This document shows positions 2,672-48,775 of a stretch of 64,000 nucleotides of DNA, piece by piece (the stretch's first letter is position 1; every line of letters starts with the position of its first letter). This DNA comes from Micromonospora sp. WMMD1128 (GTDB taxonomy: Bacteria > Actinomycetota > Actinomycetes > Mycobacteriales > Micromonosporaceae): contig NZ_CP114902.1 in NCBI RefSeq assembly GCF_027497235.1, forward strand, positions 186,001-250,000. Reading direction: 5' to 3'. The notes under the pieces are model-generated. The model searched no databases, was not told the DNA's origin, and worked only from the letters and a program-made list of their open reading frames with translations. The position numbers and the translations under genes are program-made.

Positions 2672-2682
2672 CACCGCAGACG

Positions 2683-2720
2683 AAAAGGGGCGGTCCGCCG
2701 TGACGGACCGCCCCTTTTTT
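2683..2720. terminator. Bidirectional intrinsic terminator between rlmB and the ABC ATPase gene
   Basis: An A-run, a GC-rich arm GGGGCGGTCCG, a short loop, the complementary arm CGGACCGCCCC and a T-run form a symmetrical hairpin. It can end both the rlmB transcript and the convergent ABC ATPase transcript. Confidence 0.9.
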
Positions 2721-2728
2721 CGCGTACG

Positions 2729-3820
<1,092 letters not shown>

Positions 3821-4187: not shown

Positions 4188-4264
4188 GCCCCTGTAGCTC
4201 AGCTGGCCAGAGCACTCGCCTTGTAAGCGAGATGTCGCCGGTTCGATCCCGGCCGGGGGCTCCA
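4188..4264 (+). tRNA. tRNA-Thr (anticodon TGT), CCA encoded
   Basis: The cloverleaf folds by eye: acceptor arm GCCCCTG pairs with CGGGGGC (one G-T pair), D arm GCTC...GAGC, anticodon stem CTCGC/GCGAG with loop CTTGTAA giving anticodon TGT (reads ACA), and T arm GCCGG-TTCGATC-CCGGC. A discriminator T and genomic CCA follow at 4261-4264. It lies alone, with no sign of an integrated element beside it. Confidence 0.95.
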
Positions 4265-4301
4265 ATTCCACAAGGCGTTCCCGGCCGATGGCCGTCGACG
4301 G

Positions 4302-5003
4302 TCAGACGGCCGTGTCCTGGGCGGCGCGGTCGTCGGCGGCGACGCCTGCGGTGACCGGCGCGGGCCGGAGACCCTTGACGAGCAGATAGACGCCGAGCGA
4401 GAACTCCCACACCGCGATGGGCAGGGCCGCGACCGCGGTCACCGGCGACAGCCGGTCCCACAGGTCGAACAGGACGCCGAGGTCGGCGGCCACGAGCAGG
4501 GGCGCCCCGGCGAGTCCGAGCAGCGGAAGAATGCGCGGGACCAGGCGCGACTTGTACAGCAGGGAACCCAGCAACAACGCGTTCACGGCCGGGATGAGGC
4601 TCTGGCTGAGCAGGAACATCGAGTCGTAGAGCGCGACCAGCGCCTGCCCGGTGACAAGCGCGTCCGCGCCGGCTCCGGCCCGCCGCAGGGCCACCACCGT
4701 GAGGAGGCTCGCGACGCCGACGAAGATGCCGGCGGCCTCCAGCACCCGAGCGGCGACGAAGCCCAGCGCCCGGGCCTCGCCGTACCGTTTGAGCACCGGG
4801 AACAGCGCGACGGCGGTGCCGATACAGGCGAGCGCGACGATCGTCTCGAGCAGGCCGCCGAGGGCGACCGGGGTCTCCGACCCGCTGCCGAGGAGGTAGT
4901 CCGCTTCGCGTACCGGGGCGTACAGCGTGAGGGTCGGTATCGAGACGAAGGTGAGCACGTAGCTTCCGCCCGCCACCAGCGAGGTCTTCCGCAGCGAGTC
5001 CAT
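4302..5003 (-). CDS. DUF4386 family membrane protein
   Basis: A 233-residue protein with about six hydrophobic helices (near residues 10-28, 45-67, 80-103, 125-150, 160-180, 190-212) and no enzymatic motif. The spacing and the TSLVAGGSYVLTF opening match the DUF4386 family, whose function is unknown; members lie in the cytoplasmic membrane. GGGAGGAG sits 7 bp before the ATG. It converges on the tRNA gene and is divergent from the AraC gene across a copy of the dispersed GGGGCCCC repeat. Confidence 0.8.
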   Translation of the reverse strand: MDSLRKTSLVAGGSYVLTFVSIPTLTLYAPVREADYLLGSGSETPVALGGLLETIVALACIGTAVALFPVLKRYGEARALGFVAARVLEAAGIFVGVASLLTVVALRRAGAGADALVTGQALVALYDSMFLLSQSLIPAVNALLLGSLLYKSRLVPRILPLLGLAGAPLLVAADLGVLFDLWDRLSPVTAVAALPIAVWEFSLGVYLLVKGLRPAPVTAGVAADDRAAQDTAV

Positions 5004-5161
5004 CCGGGCTCCTCCCGTGACTGTCGATCAATCGACGGTGATGATGCGGTTACCCTCCTGCGCATCGGGGTGTCGGCGAATCGGCCGCTCGGACAGTCCT
5101 CGGCGACGACGGCACCGGGCAGAACTGGGAGGCGTGACGTGGGCGCGCGAGGTGACGGGGT

Positions 5162-5213
5162 GTTAAACGGGGGCCCTTCCTATACCGAATGCGTTAACAA
5201 GGGCCCCCTCCTT
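5162..5213 (-). repeat. Dispersed GGGGCCCC/CTTAAC repeat, copy A
   Basis: Read on the minus strand this has the order shared with copies B, C and D: a GGGGGCCC block, a TTAACGC block, the centre ATTCGGTATAGG, a second GGGCCCCC block and a final TTAAC. It is the only inverted copy and sits directly against the AraC start codon, where a ribosome-binding site would be expected. Confidence 0.8.
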
Positions 5214-5215
5214 AC

Positions 5216-5617
5216 ATGAGTCGGGGGGTGGAGGAGTCGAACCGGGCCATGTTGCGGGCCCGGGACGCGATGGACCGGGCGTACGCGCACCCGCTGGACA
5301 TTCCGGCGCTGGCCCGGATCGCGCACGTGTCGCAGGCGCACTTCATCCGGACCTTCCGGGCCACGTTCGGCGAGACCCCGCACCGCTACCTGCAACGCCG
5401 TCGGGTCGAGCGGGCCATGTCGATGCTGCTGGAGACCGACCGGGACGTCACAGACATCTGCCTCGCCGTGGGCTTCGCCAGCCTCGGCACGTTCAGCCGG
5501 ACGTTCCGGCAGGTCGTCGGCGAGTCGCCGAGCGACTTCCGGCGGCACCGGTCCGCCGCGGCGAACGTGCCGAGCTGCTTCGCGAAATCCTGGACCAGAC
5601 CGAGCAGTTTTGGATAA
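5216..5617 (+). CDS. AraC-family regulator, DNA-binding domain only
   Basis: Almost the whole 133-residue product is the double helix-turn-helix module of AraC/XylS regulators: IPALARIAHVSQAHFIRTFRATFGETPHRYLQRRRVERA is the first and DICLAVGFASLGTFSRTFRQVVGESPSDFRR the second with its signature. No ligand-binding domain is present. The start is uncertain. ATG 5216 has no ribosome-binding site because repeat copy A ends just before it, while ATG 5249 has GGAGGAG about 12 bp upstream. The VOC gene follows after 35 bp on the same strand, the usual pairing in which the small AraC protein controls the glyoxalase-like gene. Confidence 0.85.
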   Translation: MSRGVEESNRAMLRARDAMDRAYAHPLDIPALARIAHVSQAHFIRTFRATFGETPHRYLQRRRVERAMSMLLETDRDVTDICLAVGFASLGTFSRTFRQVVGESPSDFRRHRSAAANVPSCFAKSWTRPSSFG

Positions 5618-5652
5618 GCAGCAGGTCAGGGGCTTGCTCTAGCGTTCGTGGC

Positions 5653-6087
5653 ATGACGATGACTTCGATTTCCCGCTCCCAGATCTACGTGCTCGACCAG
5701 GACGAGGCGCTCGACTTCTATGTCGGCAAGCTGGGCATGGAGGTGAACACCGACCAGGATCTCGGCTTCATGCGCTGGTTGACGGTGAACGTGCCGGGCG
5801 ACCCCGCGCGGGAGATCCTGCTGGAGAAGCCCGGCCCGCCGGCGCTGGACCCGAAGACCGCCGAGCAGGTGCGGGAGCTGCTCACCAAGGGCGCCGCCGG
5901 CGGCTTCCTGTTCCTCACCACCGACGACGCGCACAAGGCGTACGCGGATCTGGTCGCCAAGGGCGTGGACGTGACCGACGAGCCGACCGACCGGCCGTAC
6001 GGGATCGACTTCGGCATCCGCGACCCGTTCGGCAACCGGATCCGGATCGGCCAGATGCACCCGCGGGAGCAGTGGGCGAACGGCTGA
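5653..6087 (+). CDS. VOC (glyoxalase/bleomycin-resistance fold) protein
   Basis: A 144-residue single-subunit vicinal-oxygen-chelate protein. It starts with the beta-alpha pattern SQIYVLDQDEALDFYVGKLGMEV, and the second module ends in the typical YGIDFGIRDPFGNRIRIGQ. A glutamate in REILLEKP and acidic residues in the second repeat could bind metal. The substrate is unknown: members include glyoxalase I, dioxygenases and antibiotic-binding proteins. It is probably co-transcribed with the AraC gene upstream. A perfect 10-bp inverted repeat follows the stop. Confidence 0.85.
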   Translation: MTMTSISRSQIYVLDQDEALDFYVGKLGMEVNTDQDLGFMRWLTVNVPGDPAREILLEKPGPPALDPKTAEQVRELLTKGAAGGFLFLTTDDAHKAYADLVAKGVDVTDEPTDRPYGIDFGIRDPFGNRIRIGQMHPREQWANG

Positions 6088-6103
6088 CCGCGGGGCAGCG
6101 GGC

Positions 6104-6137
6104 ATCGGGAGGGGCGACTAGGGTCGGCCCTCCCGAT
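6104..6137 (+). terminator. Hairpin after the VOC gene
   Basis: ATCGGGAGGG, a 14-nt loop and CCCTCCCGAT form a perfect 10-bp stem between the VOC stop and the next start. There is no T-tract. It is most likely a terminator, but could act in the leader of the following gene. Confidence 0.5.
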
Positions 6138-6154
6138 CCATGGTGAGGTGACAG

Positions 6155-6766
6155 ATGCCCAGCCGGCTGCTGTTCCTGGCCCGACACGGCGAGCAGGACG
6201 GGGCCGAGGTGGAGGGGAACACCGGCCTCTCCGCGCGGGGCCGGCGGCAGGCGGCCCTCCTCGGCGAGCGGCTGAGCGGGGCGCGGATCGACGCGGTGCA
6301 CCACGGGCCGCTGCTGCGGGCCGCGGAGACCGCCGAGTTGGTCGTCGCCGCGCTTCCCGGCGTACCCGTGCACTGCTCCGACAGCGTGGGTGACCACCTG
6401 CCCCACGACACGGATCCGGCCGGCCTGCCGGCGGCGTACGCCCGGATGTTGGCCGGCTACGACGCGGCCGAGCGGGCCGACGGGCCGCGCCGGACGGCGG
6501 AGGCCGTGGCGCGTTTCGCGGCCGTGCCGGCCGAGGGTGACGTACGCGAGCTGGTGGTGACGCACAGCTTCCTGATCGCCTGGTTGGTGCGGCACGCCCT
6601 GGACGCGCCGGAGCGGCGTTGGCTCGGCCTGGGCCTGCACAACGCGGGGTTGACCGTGATCCGCTTCAGTGCCGGCGGCCCACCGAACCTGATCGCGGTC
6701 AACGACGTCGCGCACCTGCCGCCGGAGCTGCGCGGCACCGGCATGCCGCCGGACTTCGTCTTCTAG
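6155..6766 (+). CDS. Histidine phosphatase superfamily protein (phosphoglycerate-mutase-like)
   Basis: The N-terminal RHGE motif (LLFLARHGEQDG, about residues 5-16) contains the phosphorylated catalytic histidine. LSARGRRQAALLGERL, a conserved arginine in GPLLRAAETAEL and the second catalytic histidine in ELVVTHSFLIAWLV complete the active site of this superfamily. At 203 residues it fits the single-domain branch. The substrate cannot be inferred: the family includes sugar-phosphate, nucleotide and protein phosphatases. The stop codon shares the palindrome CTAG with the stop of the convergent lipoprotein gene. Confidence 0.85.
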   Translation: MPSRLLFLARHGEQDGAEVEGNTGLSARGRRQAALLGERLSGARIDAVHHGPLLRAAETAELVVAALPGVPVHCSDSVGDHLPHDTDPAGLPAAYARMLAGYDAAERADGPRRTAEAVARFAAVPAEGDVRELVVTHSFLIAWLVRHALDAPERRWLGLGLHNAGLTVIRFSAGGPPNLIAVNDVAHLPPELRGTGMPPDFVF

Positions 6767-7224
6767 CCGGTCGCGCGGGTGAGCAGGCCGACCACCTCGG
6801 CGGTGGCGGCCGGCGGGGTGGCCTGCGGCGGGCAGTCCACGTACGAACTCGTGGTCGAGCCGATGGTGAGCCGGTAGTTGAAAGCGTCGGCGCACATGGT
6901 CGCCGGCACGGTGACGGCGGCCTCGGCGGTCAGCCGGGGGTCGGCGGTGAGCTGCCGCAGCCGGTCGAGTTCGGCCTCGGTGAGTTGGCCGTCGCGGGCG
7001 GTGCCGGACCGGTCGGTCCTGGTCCAGCTCCCGTCGGGCCGCACGGTGATGGTGTCGGTGAGCCCGACGATGCCACCGGATTTCACGAGCGTCACGTTGA
7101 CGCCGGGCGCGGGGGCGGGCGTGGCGACCGGGCCGACGGGCGCCGGTGTGTCGGCACGGGCGCAGCCGGCGAGCGGGGTGAGGATGACGGCGACGGCGGC
7201 CGCCATGGCGGGGGCTGCTCTCAT
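6763..7224 (-). CDS. Secreted lipoprotein of unknown function (paralogue of the gene at 57987)
   Basis: A signal peptide ends in the lipobox LAGC, so the mature protein should be lipid-anchored outside the membrane. The mature part has the pattern VTLVKSGGIVGLTDTITV...GSW, a leucine-rich ELDRLRQLTADP segment, a lone cysteine, YRLTI, a CPP motif and a final EVVGLLTRAT. The same pattern in the same order recurs in the lipoprotein at 57987-58496. No catalytic motif is visible. The stop overlaps the convergent phosphatase stop by 3 bp. Confidence 0.75.
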   Translation of the reverse strand: MRAAPAMAAAVAVILTPLAGCARADTPAPVGPVATPAPAPGVNVTLVKSGGIVGLTDTITVRPDGSWTRTDRSGTARDGQLTEAELDRLRQLTADPRLTAEAAVTVPATMCADAFNYRLTIGSTTSSYVDCPPQATPPAATAEVVGLLTRATG

Positions 7225-7393
7225 ACCGATCGGACGCGCGACGGGGCCACCTGGTTCCCACCCACCGCGCCTCCCTCATCCGTTCGGTCAGTGTCTCGGA
7301 CGGGAAACCGCCGATCTCTTTCACGCCCTTCGATGTCTCAGCTATATCTACATCAGTGACTACCCCCGTCACAACTTCCTTCCAGGAGGGCCC

Positions 7394-25052: not shown

Positions 25053-25106
25053 TTAAGGCGGGGGCCCCGCTTAACGCCTCCGGTAGAGGCGGGGCCCCCG
25101 CTTAAC
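25053..25106 (+). repeat. Dispersed GGGGCCCC/CTTAAC repeat, copy B
   Basis: Begins 4 bp after the DeoR stop. Order: GGGGGCCCC, GCTTAACGC, the hairpin GCCTC-CGGTA-GAGGC, GGGGCCCCC, GCTTAAC. The central 5-bp stem is perfect in this copy. Confidence 0.85.
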
Positions 25107-31314: not shown

Positions 31315-32076
31315 TCAGCGTTCCCGGGACCGGGTCGCCCGGTCAAGCGCCCGGTCCAGGACGACCAGCAGGGCGTCCCGTACGGAGAGCCGGTCCCGGG
31401 CGTCGAACTGCACGAGCGGCACGTGCTCGGCGATCGCCAGCGCCCACCGGATCGACGGCAGGTCCAGGGCCAACCGCCCGTCGAACGCGTTGACGCCAAC
31501 GGCGAACGGCAGCCCGGCCCGTTCGAAGAAGTCGATCGCCGGATAGCAGTCGTCGAGCCGGGCGCTGTCCACCACCACAAGCGCGCCGAGCGCGCCCCGG
31601 GCCAGGTCGTCCCACATGAAACCGAACCGGGCCTGACCTGGCGTACCGAAGAGGTAGAGCTTCAGGCTGCGGTCGATGGTCACGGAGCCGAAGTCCATGG
31701 CGACCGTGGTGGTGGTCTTGCCGGCCACTCCGCCCGGATCGTCGACGCCGATCCCGGCGGTGGTCATCTCCGCCTCGGTGGTCAGCGGAGCGATCTCGGA
31801 GATCGCGCCGACCGTGGTGGTCTTGCCGACCCCGAAGCCGCCCGCGATGAGGATCTTCACCGGGATCGGCGGGCGGGGCGCGGGTACCCGGCTGACGATC
31901 GGGGCCGGTTCCCCGGGCGTGCCCGGCGGCCGGTAGGGCAGTGGTGGTCCGGCCGGTGGGGGCGGTGTGGCCCGGCCGATCAGTGGGGCAGGGTTGCCGT
32001 AGCGGGCGGGGGCGCTGTTCGCGGCCGGCCCGCCCTGGGCGGCCGCCCGCCAGTCAGGAGATCGCACGAAGTCCAT
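31315..32076 (-). CDS. Conservon GTPase/ATP-GTP-binding protein (CvnD type)
   Basis: A small Ras-like nucleotide-binding protein acting at the membrane with the kinase, Roadblock and DUF742 proteins. After a 70-residue Pro-rich segment come the P-loop GGFGVGKTTTVGAISEI, the switch region EAEMTTAGIGVDD and the G3-like YLFGTPGQARF, ending with a guanine-specificity-type strand VGVNAFDG. The ATG at 32076 lies inside the end of the DUF742 gene (23-bp overlap). Conservon GTPases of Streptomyces influence development and antibiotic production. Confidence 0.88.
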   Translation of the reverse strand: MDFVRSPDWRAAAQGGPAANSAPARYGNPAPLIGRATPPPPAGPPLPYRPPGTPGEPAPIVSRVPAPRPPIPVKILIAGGFGVGKTTTVGAISEIAPLTTEAEMTTAGIGVDDPGGVAGKTTTTVAMDFGSVTIDRSLKLYLFGTPGQARFGFMWDDLARGALGALVVVDSARLDDCYPAIDFFERAGLPFAVGVNAFDGRLALDLPSIRWALAIAEHVPLVQFDARDRLSVRDALLVVLDRALDRATRSRER

Positions 32077-32506
32077 CAATCACTCGCAGGATGAGGTCGG
32101 GATCGAGGGCGTCGTCGCCGTCCGCGACGTGCACGTCGAGGTGGCCGGCGGCGCGTAGGTCACCGACCAGCACCCGGGTCACCCCGAACTGCATCCGGGT
32201 CCGGGCGGAGATCTCGGCCACCGACACCGGCTCGACGCAGATCGCGACGATCGCGGCCAGTTCCGGGGCCAGTCGGGCGGTCACCGCCCACGAGACGCTG
32301 CCGGGCCGGGCGGTCACCTGGGTCTCCAGGCTGATCGCCGGGTCGCCGTCCACCCGGCCGGCGGTGAGCACGAACGGCCGTAGGCCGGACGGCTCCCCGT
32401 CGTCGGCGTCCGTGCTCGGCGTCGGCCGGGTGGACGCACGCAGGAAGGGGCGGATCCGGACGCCGTGTTCCGGCTCCGGATCCTCGTCGGCGGCCCCCGG
32501 GATCAT
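32054..32506 (-). CDS. DUF742 protein (CvnC type)
   Basis: A 150-residue cytoplasmic protein. The family opening VRIRPF and the segment LRPFVLTAGRV are clear, followed by a winged-helix-like region (LAAIVAICVEPVSVAEISARTRMQFGVTRVLVGDLRAAGHLDVH). DUF742 proteins belong to conservons and associate with the Roadblock protein and GTPase. The ATG overlaps the Roadblock stop (ATGA) and the gene end overlaps the GTPase start. Confidence 0.9.
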   Translation of the reverse strand: MIPGAADEDPEPEHGVRIRPFLRASTRPTPSTDADDGEPSGLRPFVLTAGRVDGDPAISLETQVTARPGSVSWAVTARLAPELAAIVAICVEPVSVAEISARTRMQFGVTRVLVGDLRAAGHLDVHVADGDDALDPDLILRVIDGLRAIS

Positions 32507-32967
32507 TGCTGAACGGCGTTCTTCAGCTCGGCGATCAGGCGGGGGCTCAGCGCACCGCCGGCACGGCCGGCGAAGAGCGTCATCTCGTACGCCACGGTGC
32601 CCAGGTTGGCGGTCCGGTCGGCGACCACGCCGAGGACCGAGCCGCTGCTGATCGCGCTGATCAGCAGGTAGCCCTCGGCCATGTCGACGATGACCCGGTT
32701 GAGCCCGCCCAGCGCGTACCAGCTGGCGGCGCCGCCGGCGAGGCTGGTCATACCGGAGACCACGGCGGCGAGCCGCTCCGCGTTGGACCGGTCCTTGATC
32801 GCGGACATGGCCATCAGGAGTCCGTCCGAGGAGACCGCGATCGCCTCCATCACCCCCGCCGTGCTGGAGGTGAACGAGTCGAGCAACCAGTTGAAGGTGC
32901 GCGCCTCGGGGCTGAGGTCGCCGTTGATGCTCTGTTCGACGTTGTCGTGCAGGAACGGGCTGGTCAC
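32503..32967 (-). CDS. Roadblock/LC7-domain protein (CvnB type)
   Basis: A 154-residue protein with one Roadblock/LC7 domain: FNWLLDSFTSSTAGVMEAIAVSSDGLLMAMSAIKDRSNAERLAAVVSGMTSLAGGAASWYALGG. In conservons it links the sensor kinase to the GTPase. The GTG at 32967 overlaps the kinase stop (GTGA) and has GAGGATCC upstream; the longer frame beyond it is antisense-type Arg/Pro sequence. Confidence 0.9.
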   Translation of the reverse strand: MTSPFLHDNVEQSINGDLSPEARTFNWLLDSFTSSTAGVMEAIAVSSDGLLMAMSAIKDRSNAERLAAVVSGMTSLAGGAASWYALGGLNRVIVDMAEGYLLISAISSGSVLGVVADRTANLGTVAYEMTLFAGRAGGALSPRLIAELKNAVQQ

Positions 32968-35840
32968 CGTGATGGATCCTCTTCGTAGCGTCGGTCGGGA
33001 CTCACTTCGCGCAGAGCACGGGCGACGCCCGCCTCGAATTCGGTGATGAGGTTTCGGACCTCGACGGGGTCGCCGGGGTCGGAGCTGGCCGGGGGCGGGG
33101 GCGCCACCGCCGAGACGGACAGGTTCGCGCCGGGTACCCGCCGGCTGAGCCGGGGTCGCTCCGGTGTCGCTTCGGCCGGCGTGATGTCGTCCTCGGCCCG
33201 GCGTACCCCGTCCTGGAACGCCTCCACCAGGGCGCGGACCGTGGCCGGGTCGTCCGGGACGCCGATCAGCGGCCCGATCACCGGCCCGGCCGGTGCGGCC
33301 GGCGGGCCGGCCGGCAGGTTCGCGCCGGGGACCCGTTTCCGGATCGGTCGGGTCCCGGGCGGCCCGGCCGGACCCGCCGCGCTCGACGGCCGCGCGGCGG
33401 ACGGCCGTTCGGCCGGCGGGACCGGTGATCCGCCCGGCGGGAATCCGGCGGGCGGCGGCGACGTCGGCCGGGCCGGGCCGGCGGGTGCCGTCGGGCGGGC
33501 CGGGCCGGCGGACGGCGTCGTGAAGGCGGGGCCGGCGGGCGGGGGCGTGAAGGCGGGGCCGGCGGGCGGGGGCGCGAAGGCGGGGCCGGCGGGCGGGGGC
33601 GCGAAGGCGGGACCGGCGGGCGGCGGCGCGAAGGCGGGGCCGGTCGTCGGCCCGGCGGCCGGGGGAGCGGCCGGGGTCGGGCCGACGACCGGTGTCGGCG
33701 GAGTGGTGCCCGCGGGGAGCGCGGCCGGGCCGGCGGGCAGCGTGGTGGGTGGCGCGGTCGCCGCGGTGCCGAGCGGGCCGGTCGTTTCCGGATCGTCGGC
33801 GGGCTCGCCGAAGGCGTTCCACGAGTCGCCGCTGGTGATGCTGCGGGTGGCCCGGCTCAGCAGCTCCGCGTCGAAGCCGACCAGGTCGGCGGACGCCGGC
33901 GGGACGCCGGCCGCGCGACCCGTGCGAGCGGGTTGCGGACGCCGCTCGCCGGCCGGCACGACGGCCCGGGCCACGGCCGCGTCTGCCGGCTCCGGCCGGC
34001 GGACCACGAGCGAGGCGGCCGGGATCTCCACGCCGGCCGTGACGCCGCCGCCAAGCGTCGCCGTCAGCCGTACGTTCCAGCCGTGCCGGCGGGCCAACCG
34101 GCCCACCACGAAGAGCCCCAACACCTCGGTCGGCGCGAGGTCGAGCCGTTCCCGCCGGGTGAGCCGGGCGTTCTCCTCGACGAGCCGTTCCTCGGTGAGG
34201 CCGATGCCGTGGTCCACCACGAGCAGCCGGGCGCCTACACCGGTCAGCTCGCCGGAGACCACGACGCGGGTGTGCGGGGGTGAGAAGGCGGTCGCGTTCT
34301 CCATCAGCTCGGCCAGCGCCAGCACCAGGTCGCCGGCGATCGCGGGCGCCGCGGAGACACCGGGCGGCACCTGCACGTCGACCCGGGTGTAGTCCTCGAT
34401 CTCGCCGAGCGCGAGCCGGACCACGTCGGCCAGTGGAACCGGCGCCACGTGATCGTCCGAGCCGGTGGCGCCGGAGAGCACCACCAGGCTGCCCGCGTTG
34501 CGGCGCAGCCGGCTGGAGATGTGGTCCAGCCGGTAGAGGTGCTCCAGCCGGCCCGGGTCGGCCTCCTGCCGTTCCAGCCGGTCGATGAGCGCGATCTGGC
34601 GGCCGACCAGGTTCTGCGTACGCCGGCCGACGTGGCCGAACATCTGCGCCACGTTGCGCCGGCCGGCAACCTGCCGCTCGACCAGCCGGGCGGCGGTGTG
34701 CTGCACCCGGTCGAACGCGCGGGCCAGGTCGCCGATCTCGTCCCGGGCGTCGACGTCCACCGGGTCTAGGCGCACCGGCGGCACCGACTCGGTCTCGTCG
34801 TCGGCGACCCGGGTCAGCTCCGCCTCGGCGACCCGGGCGACGCGCTCGGCGGACTTGGTGAGCCGGCTCAGCGGCCGGGACACGGTCCGGGCGACGGTCA
34901 TGCTCAGCAGCACCACCAGGAGAAGGATCACGGCCGCCGCCACGGCGACCAGCCAGGCCGCGGTCAGCGCCTCCCGCTCCTCGGTACGGGTCTCCGCGAT
35001 CACGTCCGCGACGATCTTCTTCTCCACGAACTGGCCCAGTGTGATCATCGAGCGGACCGAGGGGAAGAGCGTGTCCAGCGGCACCCGTGCGATCGAAAGG
35101 ACCGGATCCTGCGCGCTGTCCTGCAGGAAGGTCTGGTTGGTCCGGGCGGCCACCGCCGCGTCGTCGAGCAGCGCCAGCTGCAACTGCTCCGGCGTGATCA
35201 GTTTGCGGAACCGCTCGTTGTCCACGTTGAGCGTCGCGACGCAGGCGATGTAGGAGGCGGAAATCGTCGGGTCACCGTTCGCGCGGACCAGGACGATCTG
35301 GGTGGCGCACGAGCTCAGCGCCTCGTCGGTGTGCAGCAGCGCGTCCAGTGCGAGCACCTGCCGCCCGGCCGACGTGTCGGTGTCCACCCGGAACGGCAGC
35401 CGAAGCGACTCGATCAGCGCCAGGTCGACCCGGGAGAAGGTGTTCAAGATCTGTGCCGGGATGGCCCGTCCGTCGAGCGTTGCGGCACGGACGTCGGCGA
35501 GCTCGCGTACCCCCTCGATCGCCTCGCTGACCGGCGTCGGCAGCGGTTCGGCGCGCAGGTCGGCGACCCGGTCGTCGACGGTGGCGGACTTCTGGAGCAG
35601 CTCGGTGCGGCTGACCCGACCGAGCAGCAGCCCGATCGAGAGCAGTCGTTCCTGCTGGAGGTCCTGGACCAGGCTGCCGATCCGGCTGGCGACGCGTACG
35701 GTCTCGGCGGTGTCTGCCGCCCGCTGCGCGGCGGCCACCCGATCGACCACCACCGGCACGGCCAGCCCGACCATGCTCAGCAGCGGAATGATCACCAGCA
35801 GGGCGAGCTTGCCCCGGATCCGCAGCCTAGTGAGCAGCAT
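32964..35840 (-). CDS. Conservon sensor histidine kinase with nitrate-sensor-like extracellular domain (CvnA type)
   Basis: A 958-residue membrane kinase. TM1 near residues 10-30, a helical extracellular NIT-like region (about 35-300, with LVQDLQQERLLSIGLLLG), TM2 near 312-335, then HAMP. The phosphoacceptor region LDHISSRLRRNAGSLVVLSG is of the conservon type, followed by the ATPase N-box ELMENATAFSPPHTRV and G-boxes VVDHGIGL and LGLFVVGRLA. The last 300 residues are Pro/Ala-rich with tandem GPAFAPPPA units, ending in helices. ATG 35840 has GGAGG upstream and overlaps the previous stop by 14 bp. Confidence 0.9.
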   Translation of the reverse strand: MLLTRLRIRGKLALLVIIPLLSMVGLAVPVVVDRVAAAQRAADTAETVRVASRIGSLVQDLQQERLLSIGLLLGRVSRTELLQKSATVDDRVADLRAEPLPTPVSEAIEGVRELADVRAATLDGRAIPAQILNTFSRVDLALIESLRLPFRVDTDTSAGRQVLALDALLHTDEALSSCATQIVLVRANGDPTISASYIACVATLNVDNERFRKLITPEQLQLALLDDAAVAARTNQTFLQDSAQDPVLSIARVPLDTLFPSVRSMITLGQFVEKKIVADVIAETRTEEREALTAAWLVAVAAAVILLLVVLLSMTVARTVSRPLSRLTKSAERVARVAEAELTRVADDETESVPPVRLDPVDVDARDEIGDLARAFDRVQHTAARLVERQVAGRRNVAQMFGHVGRRTQNLVGRQIALIDRLERQEADPGRLEHLYRLDHISSRLRRNAGSLVVLSGATGSDDHVAPVPLADVVRLALGEIEDYTRVDVQVPPGVSAAPAIAGDLVLALAELMENATAFSPPHTRVVVSGELTGVGARLLVVDHGIGLTEERLVEENARLTRRERLDLAPTEVLGLFVVGRLARRHGWNVRLTATLGGGVTAGVEIPAASLVVRRPEPADAAVARAVVPAGERRPQPARTGRAAGVPPASADLVGFDAELLSRATRSITSGDSWNAFGEPADDPETTGPLGTAATAPPTTLPAGPAALPAGTTPPTPVVGPTPAAPPAAGPTTGPAFAPPPAGPAFAPPPAGPAFAPPPAGPAFTPPPAGPAFTTPSAGPARPTAPAGPARPTSPPPAGFPPGGSPVPPAERPSAARPSSAAGPAGPPGTRPIRKRVPGANLPAGPPAAPAGPVIGPLIGVPDDPATVRALVEAFQDGVRRAEDDITPAEATPERPRLSRRVPGANLSVSAVAPPPPASSDPGDPVEVRNLITEFEAGVARALREVSPDRRYEEDPSR

Positions 35841-37002
35841 CGAAGGGCCTCCACCGCTCGGCCTCGGGAGCCGTACCGGCCCGGACGGGCAGGCGGTCGG
35901 CGTCCCGGACAGGTAGGCGGTCGGCGTCCCGCGCGGGGGCCGGTGGGTCCGGGCGGACCGCCGGGGGCCGCGCGGCCTCGGCATGCGTCGGGCGCTTCTC
36001 GGCGGGGCGGCGCCGGAACAGCGTCACGGCCAGCCCCACCAGCAGCGCGGTCGCCACCCCGGCCGCGACCCGGGCCAGCAGCCGGTCCCGGTCGAGTGCG
36101 TCCAGCCGCTTCGTCAGCAGCGCGTCGAGCTGGTCGAGGATGACGGTGCGGAGCTGCTTGGCGGCGGCCTGGGCGCTGATCCCGGCGGCGGTGAGCTGCT
36201 GGGGATTCGGCGCGGCCTGCCCGCCGCCCGCCGCGGTGAACGCTTCGAGGGACCGCTGATAGGTGTCCAACGGGGTGAGCACGTTGGCACCCAGGTCGGC
36301 GCTCTCCGTACTGTCCACCGCCGCGCGGAGGTCGGCGACCAGGTCGTTGGCCGGGCCGAACGCGGCCACCCGGAGTTCGGCCAGCTCGATGCCGGTCTTC
36401 GTCCGCTCGGCTGCGGGTCGGGTGGCGGCCAGCCGGACCAGGTCGGCGAGCCGGCCGGCGAGCACCGTCGCGGTGGGCAGCGCTCCGCCGATGCCGTCCT
36501 GGAGGAAGAACGTGTCCGACTGCGGGTCGCGGATCAGGCCGGAGCTTTCCCGTACCTTCCGGTAGAGGGCGAGCAGCAGGTCGGCGGCCTCGCCGTACGC
36601 CTGGTAGGCCGCCTCCGGATCGGTGAGTTCGCGCTCCGGCATCCCGTCCAGCTTCGCCCGCAGCCCGGCCCAGCGGTCGTGGGTGCGCAGCTCGTCGCCG
36701 ACGGCGTCGTCCACGCTCGCCACCTCTTCGATGGCGGCGCTGAGCGCGGCGCGGGAGGCCGGCGCCTGGGCGACGGCCGTGGACTGGACCTCCACCAGCG
36801 AGTCGGTGAGCGGCCCGAGGGCGCGCAGGTAGCGGACGCCGAGTCGTTCCCGGGTGGCCAGGTCGTGGTCGTCCGCGGTGTTCCCCTCGGCGAGCGCGAA
36901 GAGCAGGCCGAGCGGGGCGACCAGCACCAGCGCCAGCAGCAGGGGCAGGACGCGGCCCGGCACGGAGGGCCGCCGACGGACCCGCGGCGCGGGGACGGTC
37001 AT
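35827..37002 (-). CDS. Two-helix extracellular sensor-like protein heading the conservon
   Basis: A 391-residue protein with an N-terminal helix (about 17-37, VLPLLLALVLVAPLGLLFALA), a 270-residue helical extracellular domain, a second helix near 325-345 (VAAGVATALLVGLAVTLF) and a short Arg/Pro-rich cytoplasmic tail with a duplicated RDADRLPV. The motif DPQSDTFFLQDGIGGALP resembles the D-x-x-x-D-S-Y/F-x-L-x-D element of chemoreceptor and sensor-kinase input domains, yet there is no kinase or methyl-accepting domain. It overlaps the kinase start and has GGAGGAGAG before its ATG. A role as accessory sensor is inferred. Confidence 0.75.
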   Translation of the reverse strand: MTVPAPRVRRRPSVPGRVLPLLLALVLVAPLGLLFALAEGNTADDHDLATRERLGVRYLRALGPLTDSLVEVQSTAVAQAPASRAALSAAIEEVASVDDAVGDELRTHDRWAGLRAKLDGMPERELTDPEAAYQAYGEAADLLLALYRKVRESSGLIRDPQSDTFFLQDGIGGALPTATVLAGRLADLVRLAATRPAAERTKTGIELAELRVAAFGPANDLVADLRAAVDSTESADLGANVLTPLDTYQRSLEAFTAAGGGQAAPNPQQLTAAGISAQAAAKQLRTVILDQLDALLTKRLDALDRDRLLARVAAGVATALLVGLAVTLFRRRPAEKRPTHAEAARPPAVRPDPPAPARDADRLPVRDADRLPVRAGTAPEAERWRPFDAAH

Positions 37003-37383: not shown

Positions 37384-40254
37384 ATGAGATCACCGCTGCC
37401 CGGCGCGCGGGCCCGGCGTGCCCTGTCCGGCCACCCGCGCCGGCTCGTCGCCGCCGTGGTGGTGGTAGTCCTGGTCGCCGCCGCGCTGGTCTGGGTGGCC
37501 CGGCCGCAGGGCCCGGACTTCCGGACCGAGCCGGCCCTGGTGACCGTCCGCTCGGGCCCGGACGGGGACGAGCCGGTCGACCTGGACACCACGCTCTACC
37601 TGCCCGACGACGCCTCCGGCGACAACCGGGTGCCGGCGGTGCTGCTGGCGCACGGCTTCGGCGGCACCAAGGAGTCGGTTCGCTCGGACGCGGAGGACCT
37701 GGTCGCCCGCGGCTACGCCGTGCTCACCTGGACCGCTCGCGGCTTCGGCCGCAGCGGCGGCCAGATTCACCTGGACAGCCCGGACTACGAGGTGCGGGAC
37801 GCGCAGCGGCTGCTGGACCGGCTCGCCGCCCGTCCGGAGATCCGCCTCGACTCGGCCGGCGACCCTCGGGTGGGCGTGGTCGGCGGCTCCTACGGCGGCG
37901 GCCTGGCCCTGCTGCTGGCCGCGCAGGACCGCCGCGTCGACGCGATCGTCCCGATGATCACCTGGAACGACCTGTCCCGGGCGTTCCTGCCGGAGAACAC
38001 CGGCAAACCGCCCACCGAGGGCGTGTTCAAGAAGGGCTGGGCCGGCATCTTCTTCGGCGGCGGCGGCAACGCCGGCTCGGGCCCGGCCGGGCTGTCCGGC
38101 GCCACCGCCGCCGCGCCGGAGGGCGCACCCGCCTCGGCCGGGCCGGCGAGCCCGCAGCCGGGCGCCGGACCGGGCAGCGGCTCCGGCCGGGCGCCTGGTG
38201 GCGCCGCCGACCCGTCCTGCGGCCGGTTCGCCGCCGACGTCTGCGCCGCGTACCTGCGCATCGCCACCACCGGCCAGGCCGACGCCGCCGCGGTCGAGCT
38301 GCTGCGCCGCTCGTCGCCGGCCCCGGCGCTGAACCGGATCAAGGCCCCCACCCTGCTGGTGCAGGGCGAGGCGGACACGCTCTTCCCGCTCACCGAGGCG
38401 GACGCCAACGCGCGCGGCATCGCCGCGGCCGGCACCCCGGTCCGGGTCGCCTGGTTCACCGGCGGCCACGACGGCGGCGCCGGGCCGACCTCCGACTCCG
38501 ACCGGGTGAAGTTCCTGACCGCGCAGTGGCTCGACCACTACGTCAAGGGCGAGGGGGCGGCACCGGGCGACTCCTTCACGTTCTCCCGGATCGCCGGGTT
38601 CGACGCGCTCGACCGGGGTCTGGTGGCCACCGGCTACCGCACCGACGACTACCCGGGCGTGACCGGGCAGGAGCGTCGCGACGTGGCGCTCACCGGCCCG
38701 GCCCAGCCGGTCGCCGTACCGCCGAACGGCAACCCGGCGGCCATCTCCACGATCCCGTTCGCCGGCGCGCTCGGCTCGCTGCTGGACGGCGTGGCCGGCG
38801 ACATCCCCGGCCAGCACGCGCGCTTCGAGTCGGCGCCGCTCGACGACCCGGTCGACGTGGTGGGCGCACCGACCGTACGGATCCGGGCCGCCTCGGCGAC
38901 CGGCGAGGCGGTGCTCTTCGTCAAGCTCTACGACGTCGACCCGCAGGGCGCGGCCGCGCTCCCCGACGGCCTGGTCGCGCCGGTGCGGCTGACCGGCCTG
39001 CCGGCCAGCCTCGACGCCGCGACGCCGGTGACGGTCACGCTGCCGGCGATCGTCCGCCGGGTCGAGGCCGGGCACCGGCTGCGGCTCGTGGTGGCGACGT
39101 CGGACCAGGCGTACGCCACGCCTGCCGAACCGGTCGTGCACACCGTGGCGCTCGGCGACGGCCCGCTGGTGCTGCCCACCGTGGACGCCGCGCCGATCCC
39201 CACCTCGGCCGCGATCTGGCGCTGGGTGCTTGTCGGCCTGCTCGCCGCGATCGCGGTCGGGCTCGTCGTGGTCGTCCTGCTCGCCCGCCGCCGGCAACGC
39301 CGCCAGGACCGCTCCGTGCACCCGGAGTACGCGGGCGTGCCGCTCGCCGTGCGCAACCTGCGCAAGGAGTACGCGGACGGCTTCGTCGCCGTTTCCGAGG
39401 TGGACTTCGAGGTGCACCCCGGCCAGGTGGTCGGCCTGCTCGGGCCGAACGGCGCCGGCAAGACCACCACGCTGCGGGTGCTGATGGGGCTGACCCAGCC
39501 CACCGCCGGGGAGATCTACGTGTTCGGGCACCGGCTGGTGCCCGGTTCGCCGGTGCTCTCCCGGATCGGCGCGCTCGTCGAGGGGCCGGGTTTCCTGCCG
39601 CACCTGTCCGGGCTGGACAACCTGAAGGCGTACTGGCGGGCGACCGGCCGGCCGTGGGCGGACGCGCACTTCGACGAGGCGCTGGAGATCGCCGGCCTGG
39701 GTGACTCGGTGCACCGGCGGACGAAGAAGTACAGCCACGGCATGCGGCAGCGGCTCGCCATCGCCCAGGCCATGCTCGGCCTGCCCGAGCTGCTGGTGCT
39801 CGACGAGCCGACGGACGGGCTCGACCCGCCGCAGATCGCCGAGATGCGCCGGGTGCTCCAGCGCTACGCCACGGACGGCCGGGCGGTGCTGGTCTCCAGC
39901 CACCTGCTGGCCGAGGTGGAGCAGACCTGCACCCACGCGGTGGTGGTGAACAAGGGGCGGATCGTGGCGTCCGGCCCGGTCGGGGAGATCGTCGGTGAGT
40001 CGCCGAGCGTGCTGTTCGAGGTGAGCGACCCGGATGCCGCGCGTACCGTGCTCGACCGGCTCGACGGTGTGCGGGTGCTGCCCGACGACGACGGTGGGCT
40101 GGTGGTCGACACGAACGGCACCGCACGCAGCGAGGTGGTGGCCGAGCTGGTCCGGGCCGGCATCGGGGTGGACCGGGTGGTGCCCCGGCGTCGCCTGGAG
40201 GACGCGTTCCTCGCCCTGGTCGGCGAGAACTCTCGGGGAAGCGGTGACCGGTGA
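37384..40254 (+). CDS. Fusion: membrane-tethered extracellular S15/CocE-type hydrolase joined to a cytoplasmic ABC ATPase
   Basis: A 956-residue single frame. Residues 21-39 form a membrane helix after an Arg-rich N-terminus. Next comes an alpha/beta hydrolase with oxyanion motif HGFGG (H90), nucleophile GGSYGGG (S169), acid D331 in GEADTLF and H362 in GGHDGG; the insertion near 235-285 is Gly/Ala/Pro-rich. Residues about 470-600 look like the jelly-roll C-terminal domain of X-Pro dipeptidyl-peptidase/CocE enzymes. A second helix (611-635) is followed by ARRRQRR and an ABC domain: Walker A K693, signature YSHGM (783-787), Walker B D807-E808, switch H in VSSHLL. Charge distribution puts the hydrolase outside and the ATPase inside. 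Confidence 0.88.
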   Translation: MRSPLPGARARRALSGHPRRLVAAVVVVVLVAAALVWVARPQGPDFRTEPALVTVRSGPDGDEPVDLDTTLYLPDDASGDNRVPAVLLAHGFGGTKESVRSDAEDLVARGYAVLTWTARGFGRSGGQIHLDSPDYEVRDAQRLLDRLAARPEIRLDSAGDPRVGVVGGSYGGGLALLLAAQDRRVDAIVPMITWNDLSRAFLPENTGKPPTEGVFKKGWAGIFFGGGGNAGSGPAGLSGATAAAPEGAPASAGPASPQPGAGPGSGSGRAPGGAADPSCGRFAADVCAAYLRIATTGQADAAAVELLRRSSPAPALNRIKAPTLLVQGEADTLFPLTEADANARGIAAAGTPVRVAWFTGGHDGGAGPTSDSDRVKFLTAQWLDHYVKGEGAAPGDSFTFSRIAGFDALDRGLVATGYRTDDYPGVTGQERRDVALTGPAQPVAVPPNGNPAAISTIPFAGALGSLLDGVAGDIPGQHARFESAPLDDPVDVVGAPTVRIRAASATGEAVLFVKLYDVDPQGAAALPDGLVAPVRLTGLPASLDAATPVTVTLPAIVRRVEAGHRLRLVVATSDQAYATPAEPVVHTVALGDGPLVLPTVDAAPIPTSAAIWRWVLVGLLAAIAVGLVVVVLLARRRQRRQDRSVHPEYAGVPLAVRNLRKEYADGFVAVSEVDFEVHPGQVVGLLGPNGAGKTTTLRVLMGLTQPTAGEIYVFGHRLVPGSPVLSRIGALVEGPGFLPHLSGLDNLKAYWRATGRPWADAHFDEALEIAGLGDSVHRRTKKYSHGMRQRLAIAQAMLGLPELLVLDEPTDGLDPPQIAEMRRVLQRYATDGRAVLVSSHLLAEVEQTCTHAVVVNKGRIVASGPVGEIVGESPSVLFEVSDPDAARTVLDRLDGVRVLPDDDGGLVVDTNGTARSEVVAELVRAGIGVDRVVPRRRLEDAFLALVGENSRGSGDR

Positions 40255-41138
40255 TGGCGGGTTCTCAGGTGGCGTCGAAGGGCAGTGGTGGGGCGGCGGT
40301 CGGTTACCGGCCGTCGGCCACGCTGCCGTTCGGGGCGGAGTTCCGGCGGCAGGCGTCGCGTCGGCGTACCCAGTTGGCGCTGGGGTTCATGGTGCTGCTG
40401 CCGCTGATCATCCTGATCGCGTTTCAGTTCGACTCCGGGAACGACGACGGCGGCGGGCGGGGCGAGTTCGCCAGCCTGGCCGACCTGGCCACCGCGGGCG
40501 GGCTCAACTTCACCCTGTTCTCGATCCTGGTGTCGGCGTCGTTCCTGCTGGTCGTGGTGGTGGCGCTGTTCTTCGGTGACACGGTGGCCAGCGAGGCGAG
40601 CTGGGGCAGCCTGCGCTACCTGCTGGCCGTGCCGGTGCCCCGGGCGCGGCTGCTCGCGGTGAAGCTGGTGGTCGCGCTCGCGTACTCCGGGTTGGCGTTG
40701 CTGCTGCTCGCGGGCACCGCGCTGCTCGCCGGCACGCTGCGGTACGGCTGGGAGCCGCTGAGCAGCCAGGTCTCCGCCGAGTTGGCCCCGGTCGACGGGC
40801 TGCTCCGGTTGCTCGGGGTGCTCGGCTACCTGGCGGTGGTGCTGCTTGTGGTGGCCGGGCTGGCGTTCCTGCTGTCGGTGACCACCGATGCCGCGCTCGG
40901 CGCGGTCGGCGGTGCGGTGCTGCTCTGGATCCTGTCCAGCATCCTCGACCAGATCACCGCGCTGGGCGGGCTGCGCGACCTGCTGCCGACCCACTACAGC
41001 AGCGCCTGGCTGGGGTTGTTGTCCACGCCGACGCAGACCGACGACGTGGTGCGGGGCGCGATCTCGGCGATCGTCTACGCGACGCTGTTCTGGGGGCTCG
41101 CCTTCTGGCGGTTCACCCGCAAGGACATCACCAGCTGA
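40254..41138 (+). CDS. ABC-2 type permease paired with the hydrolase-ATPase fusion
   Basis: A 294-residue protein with six hydrophobic helices (near 45-62, 95-120, 145-170, 190-215, 225-245, 265-285). GDTVASEASWGSLRYLLAVPVPRARLL after helix 2 is the ABC-2 coupling segment. It starts inside the fusion-gene stop (TGATG; GTG 40251 is an alternative), so both are translated together and must form one transporter, with the ATPase supplied by the fusion protein. Repeat copy C begins 5 bp after the stop. Confidence 0.85.
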   Translation: MAGSQVASKGSGGAAVGYRPSATLPFGAEFRRQASRRRTQLALGFMVLLPLIILIAFQFDSGNDDGGGRGEFASLADLATAGGLNFTLFSILVSASFLLVVVVALFFGDTVASEASWGSLRYLLAVPVPRARLLAVKLVVALAYSGLALLLLAGTALLAGTLRYGWEPLSSQVSAELAPVDGLLRLLGVLGYLAVVLLVVAGLAFLLSVTTDAALGAVGGAVLLWILSSILDQITALGGLRDLLPTHYSSAWLGLLSTPTQTDDVVRGAISAIVYATLFWGLAFWRFTRKDITS

Positions 41139-41143
41139 GGTGC

Positions 41144-41195
41144 AAGGCGGGGGCCCCTCTTAACGCTTCCGGTAGAGGAAGGGGCCCCGCTTAAC
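41144..41195 (+). repeat. Dispersed GGGGCCCC/CTTAAC repeat, copy C
   Basis: Starts 5 bp after the permease stop. Order: GGGGGCCCC, CTTAACGC, a centre in which CTTCC pairs with GGAAG, GGGGCCCC, GCTTAAC. The central stem differs in sequence from copy B but is still paired. Confidence 0.85.
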
Positions 41196-41209
41196 GTCTC
41201 AAGCCCATA

Positions 41210-41229
41210 TCATGGGAGCGTTCCCATGA
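41210..41229 (+). promoter_or_regulatory. CebR/LacI-type operator upstream of doxX
   Basis: The 20-bp palindrome has arms TCATGGGA and TCCCATGA around GCGT. Its core TGGGAGCGTTCCCA differs by one base from TGGGAGCGCTCCCA, the published CebR site of cellulose-utilisation genes in Streptomyces. It lies 88 bp before the doxX start. No LacI-family gene is in the window. Confidence 0.6.
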
Positions 41230-41317
41230 GATTGTCCCGCCAGCAAGGAATTGATTAACTTCTATTCCTGCGCCCGCCATCCTGGACGTCGCCACATATC
41301 GCCCCAGGAGGTATCCC

Positions 41318-47049: not shown

Positions 47050-47101
47050 GTTGTGACACGCCCCTACTGATCTGGTGCCTTTCTGTTGCATGATGGCGGG
47101 C

Positions 47102-48775
47102 ATGACGGAGACCCCGCACCCCCTGTACGACAGGCACGCCGAAACCCTCGACCGGGCGCTGACCGCGATCACGGAGCGCGGGTACTGGTCCGCCTATCCC
47201 GAGTCGCCCAGCCCCCGGGTGTACGGCGAGACCGCAGCCGCCGACGGCAAGGCCGCCTTCGAGGCGTACCTGGGTGGCGACTTCCCGCTCGACCAGGCCG
47301 CTGACGGCACCACCGTCGCCACCGAGGCCAGCCCGTTCGGGGTGTCGCTGGACGTGCGCTACCCGCACGCCGGCGCCGACGAACTGGTGGCCGCCGCCAC
47401 CGCCGCGCTCCCGGCCTGGCGCGACGCCGGCCCGAAGGCCCGGGCCGGGGTCTGCCTGGAGATCCTCGACCGCCTCCACCGGAACATCTTCGAGCTGGCC
47501 AACGCCGTGCAGTTCACGAGCGGCCAGGCGTTCGTGATGGCGTTCCAGGCCGGCGGCGCGCACGCGCTGGACCGCGCCCTGGAGGCGGTCGCCTACGCGT
47601 ACGCGGAGATGACCCGCCATCCGGGGACGGCCGGCTGGGAGAAGGCCGCCGGCAAGGGCGACCCGCTGCGGATGACCAAGACGTTCCACGTGGTGCCGCG
47701 CGGGGTGGCGCTCGTCATCGGCTGCAACACGTTCCCGACCTGGAACTCGTACCCCGGGTTGTTCGCCTCGCTCGTCACCGGCAACCCGGTGCTGGTGAAG
47801 CCGCACCCGCGGGCCGTGCTGCCACTGGCGATCACCGTGCGGTACGCCCGCCAGGTGCTCGCCGAGGCCGGCTTCGACCCGAACCTGGTGCAGCTCGCTC
47901 CCGAGGCCGCAGGCGAGAAGCTCGCCTCGACGCTGGCCCTGCACCCGGCCGTCAAGATCGTCGACTTCACCGGCTCCACCGAGTACGGCGACTGGCTGGA
48001 GGCGAACGCCCGGCAGGCCGCCGTCTACACCGAGAAGGCCGGCCTGAACACGGTGGTGATCGACTCCACCGACGACTTCGCCGGGCTCTGCCGCAACCTC
48101 GGCTTCACGCTGACGCTCTACAGCGGTCAGATGTGCACCACCTCGCAGAACCTGCTGATCCCGCGCGACGGCATCGACACCGACCAGGGGCACAAGAGTT
48201 TCGACGAGGTGGCCGCCGGCATCGCCGGCGCGGTCGGCAAGCTGACCGCCGACCCGGCCCGGGGTGTCGAGCTGACCGGCGCGATCGTCAACGACGGGGT
48301 GCTGGAGCGCCTCGACGAGATCGCCAAGGTCGGTGAGCCGGTGCTGGAGTCCCGCACCGTCGAGCACCCGTCCTTCCCGGGCGCCGTGGTGCGTACGCCG
48401 ACCGTGGTCAAGCTGGACGCCGGCGACACCGCGACCTACGGGCGGGAGTGGTTCGGGCCGATCTCGTTCGCCATCGCGACCGACTCGACCGAGCACAGCC
48501 TGCGCATCCTGCGCGAGACGGTGGGGGAGAAGGGCGCGTTGACCGCGGCCGTCTACTCCACCGACGAGGCGGTGCTGGACGCGGCCGAGGCGGCGGCGGT
48601 CGACGCCGGGGTGCACCTGTCCTGCAACCTGACCGGCGGCGTCTTCGTCAACCAGTCGGCGGCGTTCTCCGACTTCCACGGCTCGGGCGCGAACCCCGCG
48701 GCGAACTCCGCCCTGACCGACGGCGCATACGTGGCAAACCGCTTCCGCGTCGTGCAGTCACGCCGCCACGCGTGA
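47102..48775 (+). CDS. paaN: PaaN-type aldehyde dehydrogenase family protein
   Basis: A 557-residue member of the aldehyde dehydrogenase superfamily. The long N-terminal region (ETLDRALTAITERGYWSAYPESPSPRVYGE) with YPHAGADELVAAATAALPAWRDAGPKARAGVCLEILDRLHRN is characteristic of the PaaN branch. NAD-site and active-site elements: VALVIGCNTFPTWNSYPGL, the glutamate region VDFTGSTEYGDWLE, and the catalytic cysteine in LYSGQMCTTSQN. PaaN is linked to phenylacetate degradation, but no other paa gene is here. Its stop is followed at once by repeat copy D. Confidence 0.8.
   Translation: MTETPHPLYDRHAETLDRALTAITERGYWSAYPESPSPRVYGETAAADGKAAFEAYLGGDFPLDQAADGTTVATEASPFGVSLDVRYPHAGADELVAAATAALPAWRDAGPKARAGVCLEILDRLHRNIFELANAVQFTSGQAFVMAFQAGGAHALDRALEAVAYAYAEMTRHPGTAGWEKAAGKGDPLRMTKTFHVVPRGVALVIGCNTFPTWNSYPGLFASLVTGNPVLVKPHPRAVLPLAITVRYARQVLAEAGFDPNLVQLAPEAAGEKLASTLALHPAVKIVDFTGSTEYGDWLEANARQAAVYTEKAGLNTVVIDSTDDFAGLCRNLGFTLTLYSGQMCTTSQNLLIPRDGIDTDQGHKSFDEVAAGIAGAVGKLTADPARGVELTGAIVNDGVLERLDEIAKVGEPVLESRTVEHPSFPGAVVRTPTVVKLDAGDTATYGREWFGPISFAIATDSTEHSLRILRETVGEKGALTAAVYSTDEAVLDAAEAAAVDAGVHLSCNLTGGVFVNQSAAFSDFHGSGANPAANSALTDGAYVANRFRVVQSRRHA

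Follow-up and report, generated by a model that had tools for sequence, protein, structure and literature searches.

A hydrolase-ABC ATPase fusion with a constant ABC-2 permease partner in Micromonospora and other Actinomycetota

A single gene of Micromonospora sp. WMMD1128 joins an alpha/beta hydrolase to a complete ATP-binding cassette (ABC) ATPase through a membrane helix and is followed directly by the gene for an ABC-2 permease. The two genes occupy positions 37384-41138 on the plus strand of the DNA analysed, a window of 64,000 nucleotides from contig NZ_CP114902.1. The arrangement is conserved in several families of Actinomycetota, its catalytic residues are intact, the fused hydrolases form a single clade and the permease is their constant partner. 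The pair can be read, tentatively, as a two-gene ABC-2 exporter with a built-in surface enzyme, which would export an acylated or lipid-like compound and then cleave it outside. The joining of hydrolase and ATPase across the membrane, with a constant permease, seems to be new; the parts were already known separately.

The fusion is a single open frame of 956 codons, running from an ATG at 37384 to a TGA at 40252-40254. Pfam matches and hydropathy give the order, from N to C terminus, of a membrane helix, an alpha/beta hydrolase, a PepX_C jelly-roll domain, a second helix and a complete ABC ATPase. The frame matches Peptidase_S15 (68.2 bits; cut-off 23) over model positions 2-134 of 262, PepX_C (PF08530, 59.3 bits; cut-off 22.5), ABC_tran (103.4 bits; cut-off 25) and Hydrolase_4. 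The permease matches ABC2_membrane_2 (45.6 bits; cut-off 27.2) and ABC2_membrane_4. Its ATG at 40254 uses the final base of the fusion stop codon, and the automated open reading frame (ORF) call starts it one codon upstream, at GTG 40251. An initial annotation, made from the letters alone, had described one continuous frame of hydrolase, jelly-roll and ABC ATPase, six catalytic or ATPase residues (S169, D331, H362, K693, D807 and E808) and a permease start within the stop codon; the frame and the overlap are borne out, and all six residues lie where it placed them.

Conservation was scored in a scan of named bacterial genomes, from which the best 80 of 431 confirmed relatives were kept (Micromonospora and genera regarded as its allies), and in a phylum sample of 198 Actinomycetota genomes. 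Residues were counted in 82 sequences and separately in 26 diverse fusions. Individual loci and genomes are designated L and G. The features of the locus are as follows.

37384..40254, plus strand: fusion gene, 956 amino acids, with helix, predicted extracellular alpha/beta hydrolase plus jelly-roll, helix and ABC ATPase; open frame, Pfam, unbroken in 79 of 80 loci
37444..37500, plus strand: first membrane segment (amino acids 21-39), a putative signal anchor with basic residues ahead of it; hydropathy 3.11; over threshold in 23 of 26 diverse fusions
37519..38583, plus strand: alpha/beta hydrolase domain (about amino acids 46-400, limits approximate); Peptidase_S15/Hydrolase_4 and fold search
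37888..37890, plus strand: codon of the nucleophile Ser169, in GGSYGG; 81/82 (exception cut by a contig end) and 26/26 diverse fusions
38374..38376, plus strand: codon of Asp331, proposed catalytic triad; 82/82 and 26/26
38467..38469, plus strand: codon of His362, proposed catalytic triad; 82/82 and 26/26
38809..39132, plus strand: PepX_C jelly-roll (amino acids 476-583); PF08530, 59.3 bits
39226..39282, plus strand: second membrane segment (amino acids 615-633) with a basic stretch after it; hydropathy 3.23; over threshold in 25 of 26 diverse fusions
39334..40251, plus strand: ABC ATPase (amino acids 651-956) with Walker A K693, Q-loop Glu733, signature YSHGM, Walker B D807/E808 and H840; ABC_tran
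40254..41138, plus strand: ABC-2 permease; ABC2_membrane_2; match after the fusion in 79/80 named and 14/14 distant loci
41146..41195, plus strand: strong hairpin just 3' of the permease, which may mark the end of the transcript and belongs to a repeated element; folding of 41130-41230 has a z-score of -3.75

The frame is unbroken in 79 of the 80 named loci, the remaining one (L078) being truncated at its start by a contig end. Downstream permease matches are likewise present in 79 of the 80 (the contig of L026 stops before the permease). The fusion occurs in at least 15 of the 198 phylum genomes, a lower bound that counts the source genome and 14 loci read, and all 14 of these have a same-strand permease match after the fusion. 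The permease is thus beside every fusion whose contig reaches it, and the "dedicated" permease of the initial annotation holds as a constant partner. The 14 distant fusions span five families besides that of Micromonospora, and one distant genus has the fusion in six of its seven listed genomes. Another family in the same order, with five genomes listed, gives weak matches only (best E value 6.8e-28), and the two of its loci that were read (L142 and L147) are unfused. The fusion is widespread yet patchy across the phylum. It is also found on a Tsukamurella plasmid and in a Nonomuraea record. A sequencing error, which the initial annotation had named as grounds for rejection, is ruled out by the unbroken frames and by the fusions in distant genomes, as is a chance read-through.

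Within the family of Micromonospora, some hydrolase match is present in 56 of 61 genomes and a strong match in 55. These 56 matches comprise 52 in frames of at least 850 amino acids, three cut by contig ends (G199, G238 and G202) and one distant relative only (G210). Hydrolase and ATPase share one frame in seven of the eight family loci read; L188 reaches the contig edge before the ATPase. The ATPase half in the remaining family genomes is presumed from frame length. In one of the seven, L193 (G228), at 2392-7232, the ATPase part appears to be split over two frames, by either an assembly frameshift or a genuine break. A check for a second fusion in the source genome gave four further Peptidase_S15 matches (L001, L002, L003 and L005), two of which were read; judged by eye, L003 is a free S15-type enzyme and L005 an S9-type peptidase.

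Asp331, His362, Lys693, Asp807 and Glu808 are kept in 82/82 sequences and Ser169 in 81, and all six are invariant in the 26 diverse fusions; the loss of key residues against which the initial annotation had warned is not seen. Other ATPase positions in the diverse fusions are similarly constant (S784, G786 and H840 in 26/26; Glu733 in 25/26), and H785 is present in 18 and replaced by Gln in the other 8. In pairwise comparisons of the window with nine of the 80 loci, omega was 0.18 to 0.31 for the hydrolase and 0.05 to 0.15 for the ATPase, so that both halves are under purifying selection; the linker region evolves faster than either (0.33 to 1.12 in the same pairs). Both activities seem to be needed, because the catalytic and ATPase residues are kept in all diverse fusions and both halves are under purifying selection.

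The hydrolase tree was built from all 26 fused sequences plus 19 of the 24 unfused ones; of the other five, L152-L155 had too low a score and L147 was too short. All fused rows fall on one side of a branch with a Shimodaira-Hasegawa-like approximate likelihood ratio test (SH-aLRT) value of 96.5 in a quick tree. In the ATPase tree, the 26 fused rows share one branch (support 99) with two unfused loci, L166 and L167, which nest beside L125 among the fused ATPases. At least two changes are therefore required, and L166 and L167 may represent later losses of the enzyme or a second origin. Compared by eye, both trees show the same main groups, which fits two halves travelling together. Another ABC ATPase frame lies near three of the 24 unfused hydrolase loci (L126, L127 and L141), and the fusion-type permease is absent beside these three. 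A wide set of homologues with separate halves had been foreseen as an argument against a true fusion system, and the trees answer it in part: the fused hydrolases are one clade with the unfused ones outside it, but unfused halves do exist and two unfused ATPases lie inside the fused branch.

The enzyme would lie outside the cell and the ATPase inside. In the window protein, basic residues precede the first helix and follow the second, and the two membrane segments exceed the hydropathy threshold in 23 and 25, respectively, of the 26 diverse fusions, whose sequences were read stop to stop. Signal-peptide-like starts were seen in eight of nine unfused hydrolase relatives viewed by eye, out of 24 rows, the distant L152 being without one; one of the eight carries CW_binding_2 repeats. 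These starts and the cell-wall repeats argue that the hydrolase domain belongs outside, and they support the orientation that was first proposed from charge patterns. In the unfused hydrolase of L122 (frame 3761-6724), such CW_binding_2 repeats stand at the C terminus, making it a secreted form of the enzyme that is probably bound to the cell wall.

The hydrolase probably cleaves esters or amides, and a peptidase role is possible. Both Peptidase_S15 and PepX_C exceed their Pfam cut-offs in the window protein and in all six further fusions scanned, and the Ser-Asp-His triad aligns in 26/26 fusions. No Pfam match was found in the fusion to PepX_N, the helical domain of the X-Pro dipeptidyl-peptidases of Firmicutes, or to the C39 cysteine peptidase domain; the hydrolase is of the serine alpha/beta type. 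The fold search ranked the lipase PaL first (8yzn/8yzo, E value 2.1e-24), ahead of cocaine esterase and alpha-amino acid ester hydrolases, with X-Pro peptidases further down. The AlphaFold model of the hydrolase alone had a predicted local distance difference test (pLDDT) value of 64 and a predicted template modelling (pTM) score of 0.66, with low confidence at about residues 193-279 and the lid outside the fold comparison; the whole-chain model reached a pLDDT of 68 and a pTM of 0.51. By sequence alone, single-domain alpha/beta hydrolases, e.g., an MHETase, score as well or better. The S15/CocE label given initially was right as to superfamily, but the nearest solved fold is that of a lipase.

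The transporter is of the ABC-2 type: its ABC ATPase is complete, and its ABC2-type permease is encoded by a gene of its own. ABC2_membrane_2 was found in all 30 permeases scanned, 24 of them from fused loci. Against solved structures, the ATPase scores best with ABCA-type domains and then with NosF (E value 1.2e-38), and the sole significant PDB match of the permease family profile is NosY (E value 1e-4), a weak match confined to a single segment of about 80 residues. Among NCBIfam families, the ATPase scores highest with the lantibiotic-protection family TIGR03740 (168.5 bits) and then with DrrA TIGR01188 (164.2 bits), both far below their cut-offs (309.75 and 312.45). Glu in the Q-loop, present in 25/26 fusions and 20/21 unfused relatives, is a trait of the ATPase clade; a literature search on Glu-type Q-loops gave nothing relevant.

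A permease search also identified a set of 18 unfused sister loci in Actinomycetota (L168-L185), in which the frame directly upstream of the ATPase was scanned. Their ATPases are 40-47% and their permeases 30-38% identical to those of the fusion. The upstream frame matches LolA, MucB/RseB or DUF2092 at an E value of 0.01 or better in 13 of the 18. The two sets are branches of one transporter family, one with the ATPase preceded by a separate LolA-like protein and the other with a fused hydrolase. They are not simple replacements for each other, as six genomes carry both kinds (G023, G107, G128, G161, G182 and G193). As lipids or lipoproteins are what LolA-like proteins bind, a substrate resembling a lipid is plausible here, though no more than that. 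A sequence search with the upstream protein of L175 found no relative among solved structures. In several loci of one genus (e.g., L174, L175, L178, L182 and L185), the LolA-like gene is itself preceded by what looks, by eye, like a polyprenyl synthase gene. Such a sister operon is a possible lipid-handling operon, and the set suggests that ABC systems working with a partner outside the cell, perhaps on lipids, are a broader class in actinobacteria.

As to topology, dimeric assembly, direction of export, substrate class and order of events, we infer the following. The usual ABC dimer would be assembled from two copies each of fusion chain and permease, and in it the cytoplasmic ATPase domains would use ATP and drive the permease. 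The cargo would be a membrane-associated compound with an ester or amide bond, possibly acylated or similar to a lipid. The permease would bring it to the outer face and the tethered hydrolase would cleave it there, with export followed by cutting at a fixed 1:1 ratio. This export-then-cut scheme is our first choice, held tentatively. It is supported by the conserved residues of both halves and the purifying selection on them, by the constant permease partner, by the signal-peptide-like starts of unfused relatives, by the ABC-2, exporter and ABCA-type matches of the ATPase and permease, by the nearest solved folds of the hydrolase (PaL lipase, cocaine esterase and alpha-amino acid ester hydrolases) and by the LolA/MucB/DUF2092-like genes upstream of 13 of 18 sister transporters. 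Several observations weigh against it. The LolA-like genes pass the curated Pfam cut-off in only 5 of the 18 sister loci, and another five have no such match upstream (L169, L170, L171, L179 and L180). In the short upstream region covered for L166 and L167, the nearest unfused pairs, there is no hydrolase gene and no LolA-like one. Furthermore, none of the neighbours examined is a biosynthetic gene pointing to a product, confidence in the single-chain models is moderate (pLDDT 64 and 68), and NosFY, the nearest solved system on the permease side, is not a plain exporter.

The initial annotation had suggested prodrug release, propeptide removal or detoxification, all of which are possible. Two further possible readings are added here: the substrate handled may be lipid-like or acylated, or ATP may gate the enzyme with nothing being transported. 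The anatomy by itself does not decide among export followed by cutting, gating, self-protection and uptake.

Gating would mean that ATPase and permease carry no substrate and instead pass ATP-driven movement to the outside enzyme, opening and closing its active site. Precedents exist in NosFY, which acts on NosD, and in FtsEX, which acts on cell-wall hydrolases. The NosY and NosF matches fit such a mechanism, as does the covalent link of the enzyme through a membrane helix, which suits the transmission of force, and sister operons likewise place the gene of an outside protein beside the ATPase. However, the NosY similarity is limited to its one short stretch, the fast-evolving linker is unlike a finely tuned lever, and no NosD-like beta-helix gene was seen in a Pfam scan that covered part of the neighbours of the loci. 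On balance, mechanical gating is unlikely, although it ranks next after export followed by cutting.

Self-protection or detoxification appears rather improbable. Here a toxic acylated or peptide compound inserted in the membrane would be pulled out and cut against its return, a destructive form of LanFEG/BcrAB-type immunity. The leading NCBIfam matches of the ATPase, to lantibiotic protection and then DrrA, point in this direction, and the Q-loop Glu that replaces the usual Gln is a LanF trait. Nevertheless, both family scores fall well short of their cut-offs, Padloc matches are limited to the ATPase part, and a hydrolase half present in 55/61 family genomes looks like housekeeping, although it is patchy across the phylum. 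Nutrient use, in which the surface enzyme would trim an ester or peptide outside the cell and the ABC part would then import the product, is very improbable: unfused, secreted-looking relatives of the hydrolase exist in the phylum, but there is no substrate-binding protein gene beside the fusion, the permease is of the ABC-2 type in 30/30, and the families closest to the ATPase are exporters and ABCA types.

The permease is the only partner common to all groups of the 27 fused loci compared. Other shared neighbours are confined to the family itself or to one distant genus, apart from an aldehyde dehydrogenase and, with rough gene calling, small opposite-strand frames that overlap the permease. 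Six loci of two groups (L086; L145, L146, L148, L149 and L151) have an aldehyde dehydrogenase gene no more than several kilobases from the fusion; that of the window is at 47075-48775, about 6 kb downstream, and the co-occurrence may be due to chance, the family being common. DoxX and pyridoxal phosphate (PLP)-dependent enzyme genes also lie downstream in the window. Upstream, on the opposite strand, are genes for a histidine-kinase-like protein and an ATP-binding protein. A product or defence locus was considered and found no support from the neighbours, the Padloc matches being confined to the ATPase part. In addition, a GC-rich palindromic repeat resembling GAAGGGGCCCCGCTTAAC has five copies in the window at three or fewer mismatches, versus 0.04 expected. 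The further features are listed below.

32964-35984, minus strand: histidine-kinase-like gene with NIT and HAMP domains and a Pro-Ala-Gly-rich repeat (GPAFAPPPA units); ORF and Pfam
31315-32079, opposite strand to the fusion: small ATP-binding protein gene near the histidine-kinase-like gene; ORF and Pfam
41147-41195, 25058-25106 and 5162-5179: copies of the palindromic repeat; those that follow the permease form a strong hairpin

No description of such a hydrolase-ABC fusion was found in a literature search without most subscription journals, in keeping with the initial view that the combined machine is functionally uncharacterised, and the one annotated member read is named simply alpha/beta fold hydrolase. 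A different enzyme-ABC fusion, with a nuclease domain, is described from fungi in the accessible part of one report (PMC3482391), and the accessible part of a 2024 survey of alpha/beta hydrolases mentions ABC twice, neither time for this fusion (PMC11878206).

The fusions may represent an undescribed class of one-piece export-and-cut machines in several families of Actinomycetota, with an ABC-2 ATPase chain carrying its own extracellular esterase and ATP use, delivery and cleavage coupled, though this broader claim is somewhat doubtful. Where an ABC transporter passes its cargo to an outside enzyme, the two are usually separate proteins, and coupling between them is therefore hard to prove. 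With enzyme and ATPase in one gene, whether export and surface cleavage are one process is open to a clean genetic test. The conserved and seemingly unstudied arrangement in a soil actinobacterium thus offers a way to ask whether ATP-driven transport and a surface enzyme act as one machine.

Several known systems share parts of this design. NosFY may be related, as NosY is the only significant, though weak, solved relative of the permease and NosF is among the better ones of the ATPase; it too works with an outside partner, NosD, but this is a separate polypeptide that does not belong to the ester hydrolases. LanF/BcrA and DrrA, the best NCBIfam relatives of the ATPase although below the family cut-offs, are exporters without a fused enzyme. 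C39 peptidase-containing ABC transporters and TagH do carry an enzyme or outside domain on the chain of their ABC ATPase, but the C39 domain acts in the cytoplasm before export, and the outside part of TagH follows the ATPase and is not a hydrolase. On the enzyme side, the pairing of Peptidase_S15 with PepX_C is that of the CocE-NonD/alpha-amino acid ester hydrolase group, whose fold matches rank just below PaL at 13-17% identity and which has no ATPase fusion. PaL, the second-best profile sequence match, likewise combines an alpha/beta hydrolase with a second beta domain, and its alignment also reaches the jelly-roll, although not significantly; it was solved as a protein on its own, with about 505 residues and no ATPase, and is about 20% identical. 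By the shared name, the PaL of 8yzn/8yzo is probably the Pseudomonas alcaligenes lipase and the PaL active on menthyl propionate. Cleavage of menthyl propionate by a lipase named PaL is recorded in the accessible part of its source (PMC9902596). The sister operons come closest on the transporter side, with a related ATPase and permease and a separate LolA-like outside protein in place of a fused hydrolase. If the export-then-cut reading is true, the fusion would be the enzymatic, covalently joined counterpart of these LolA-paired transporters.

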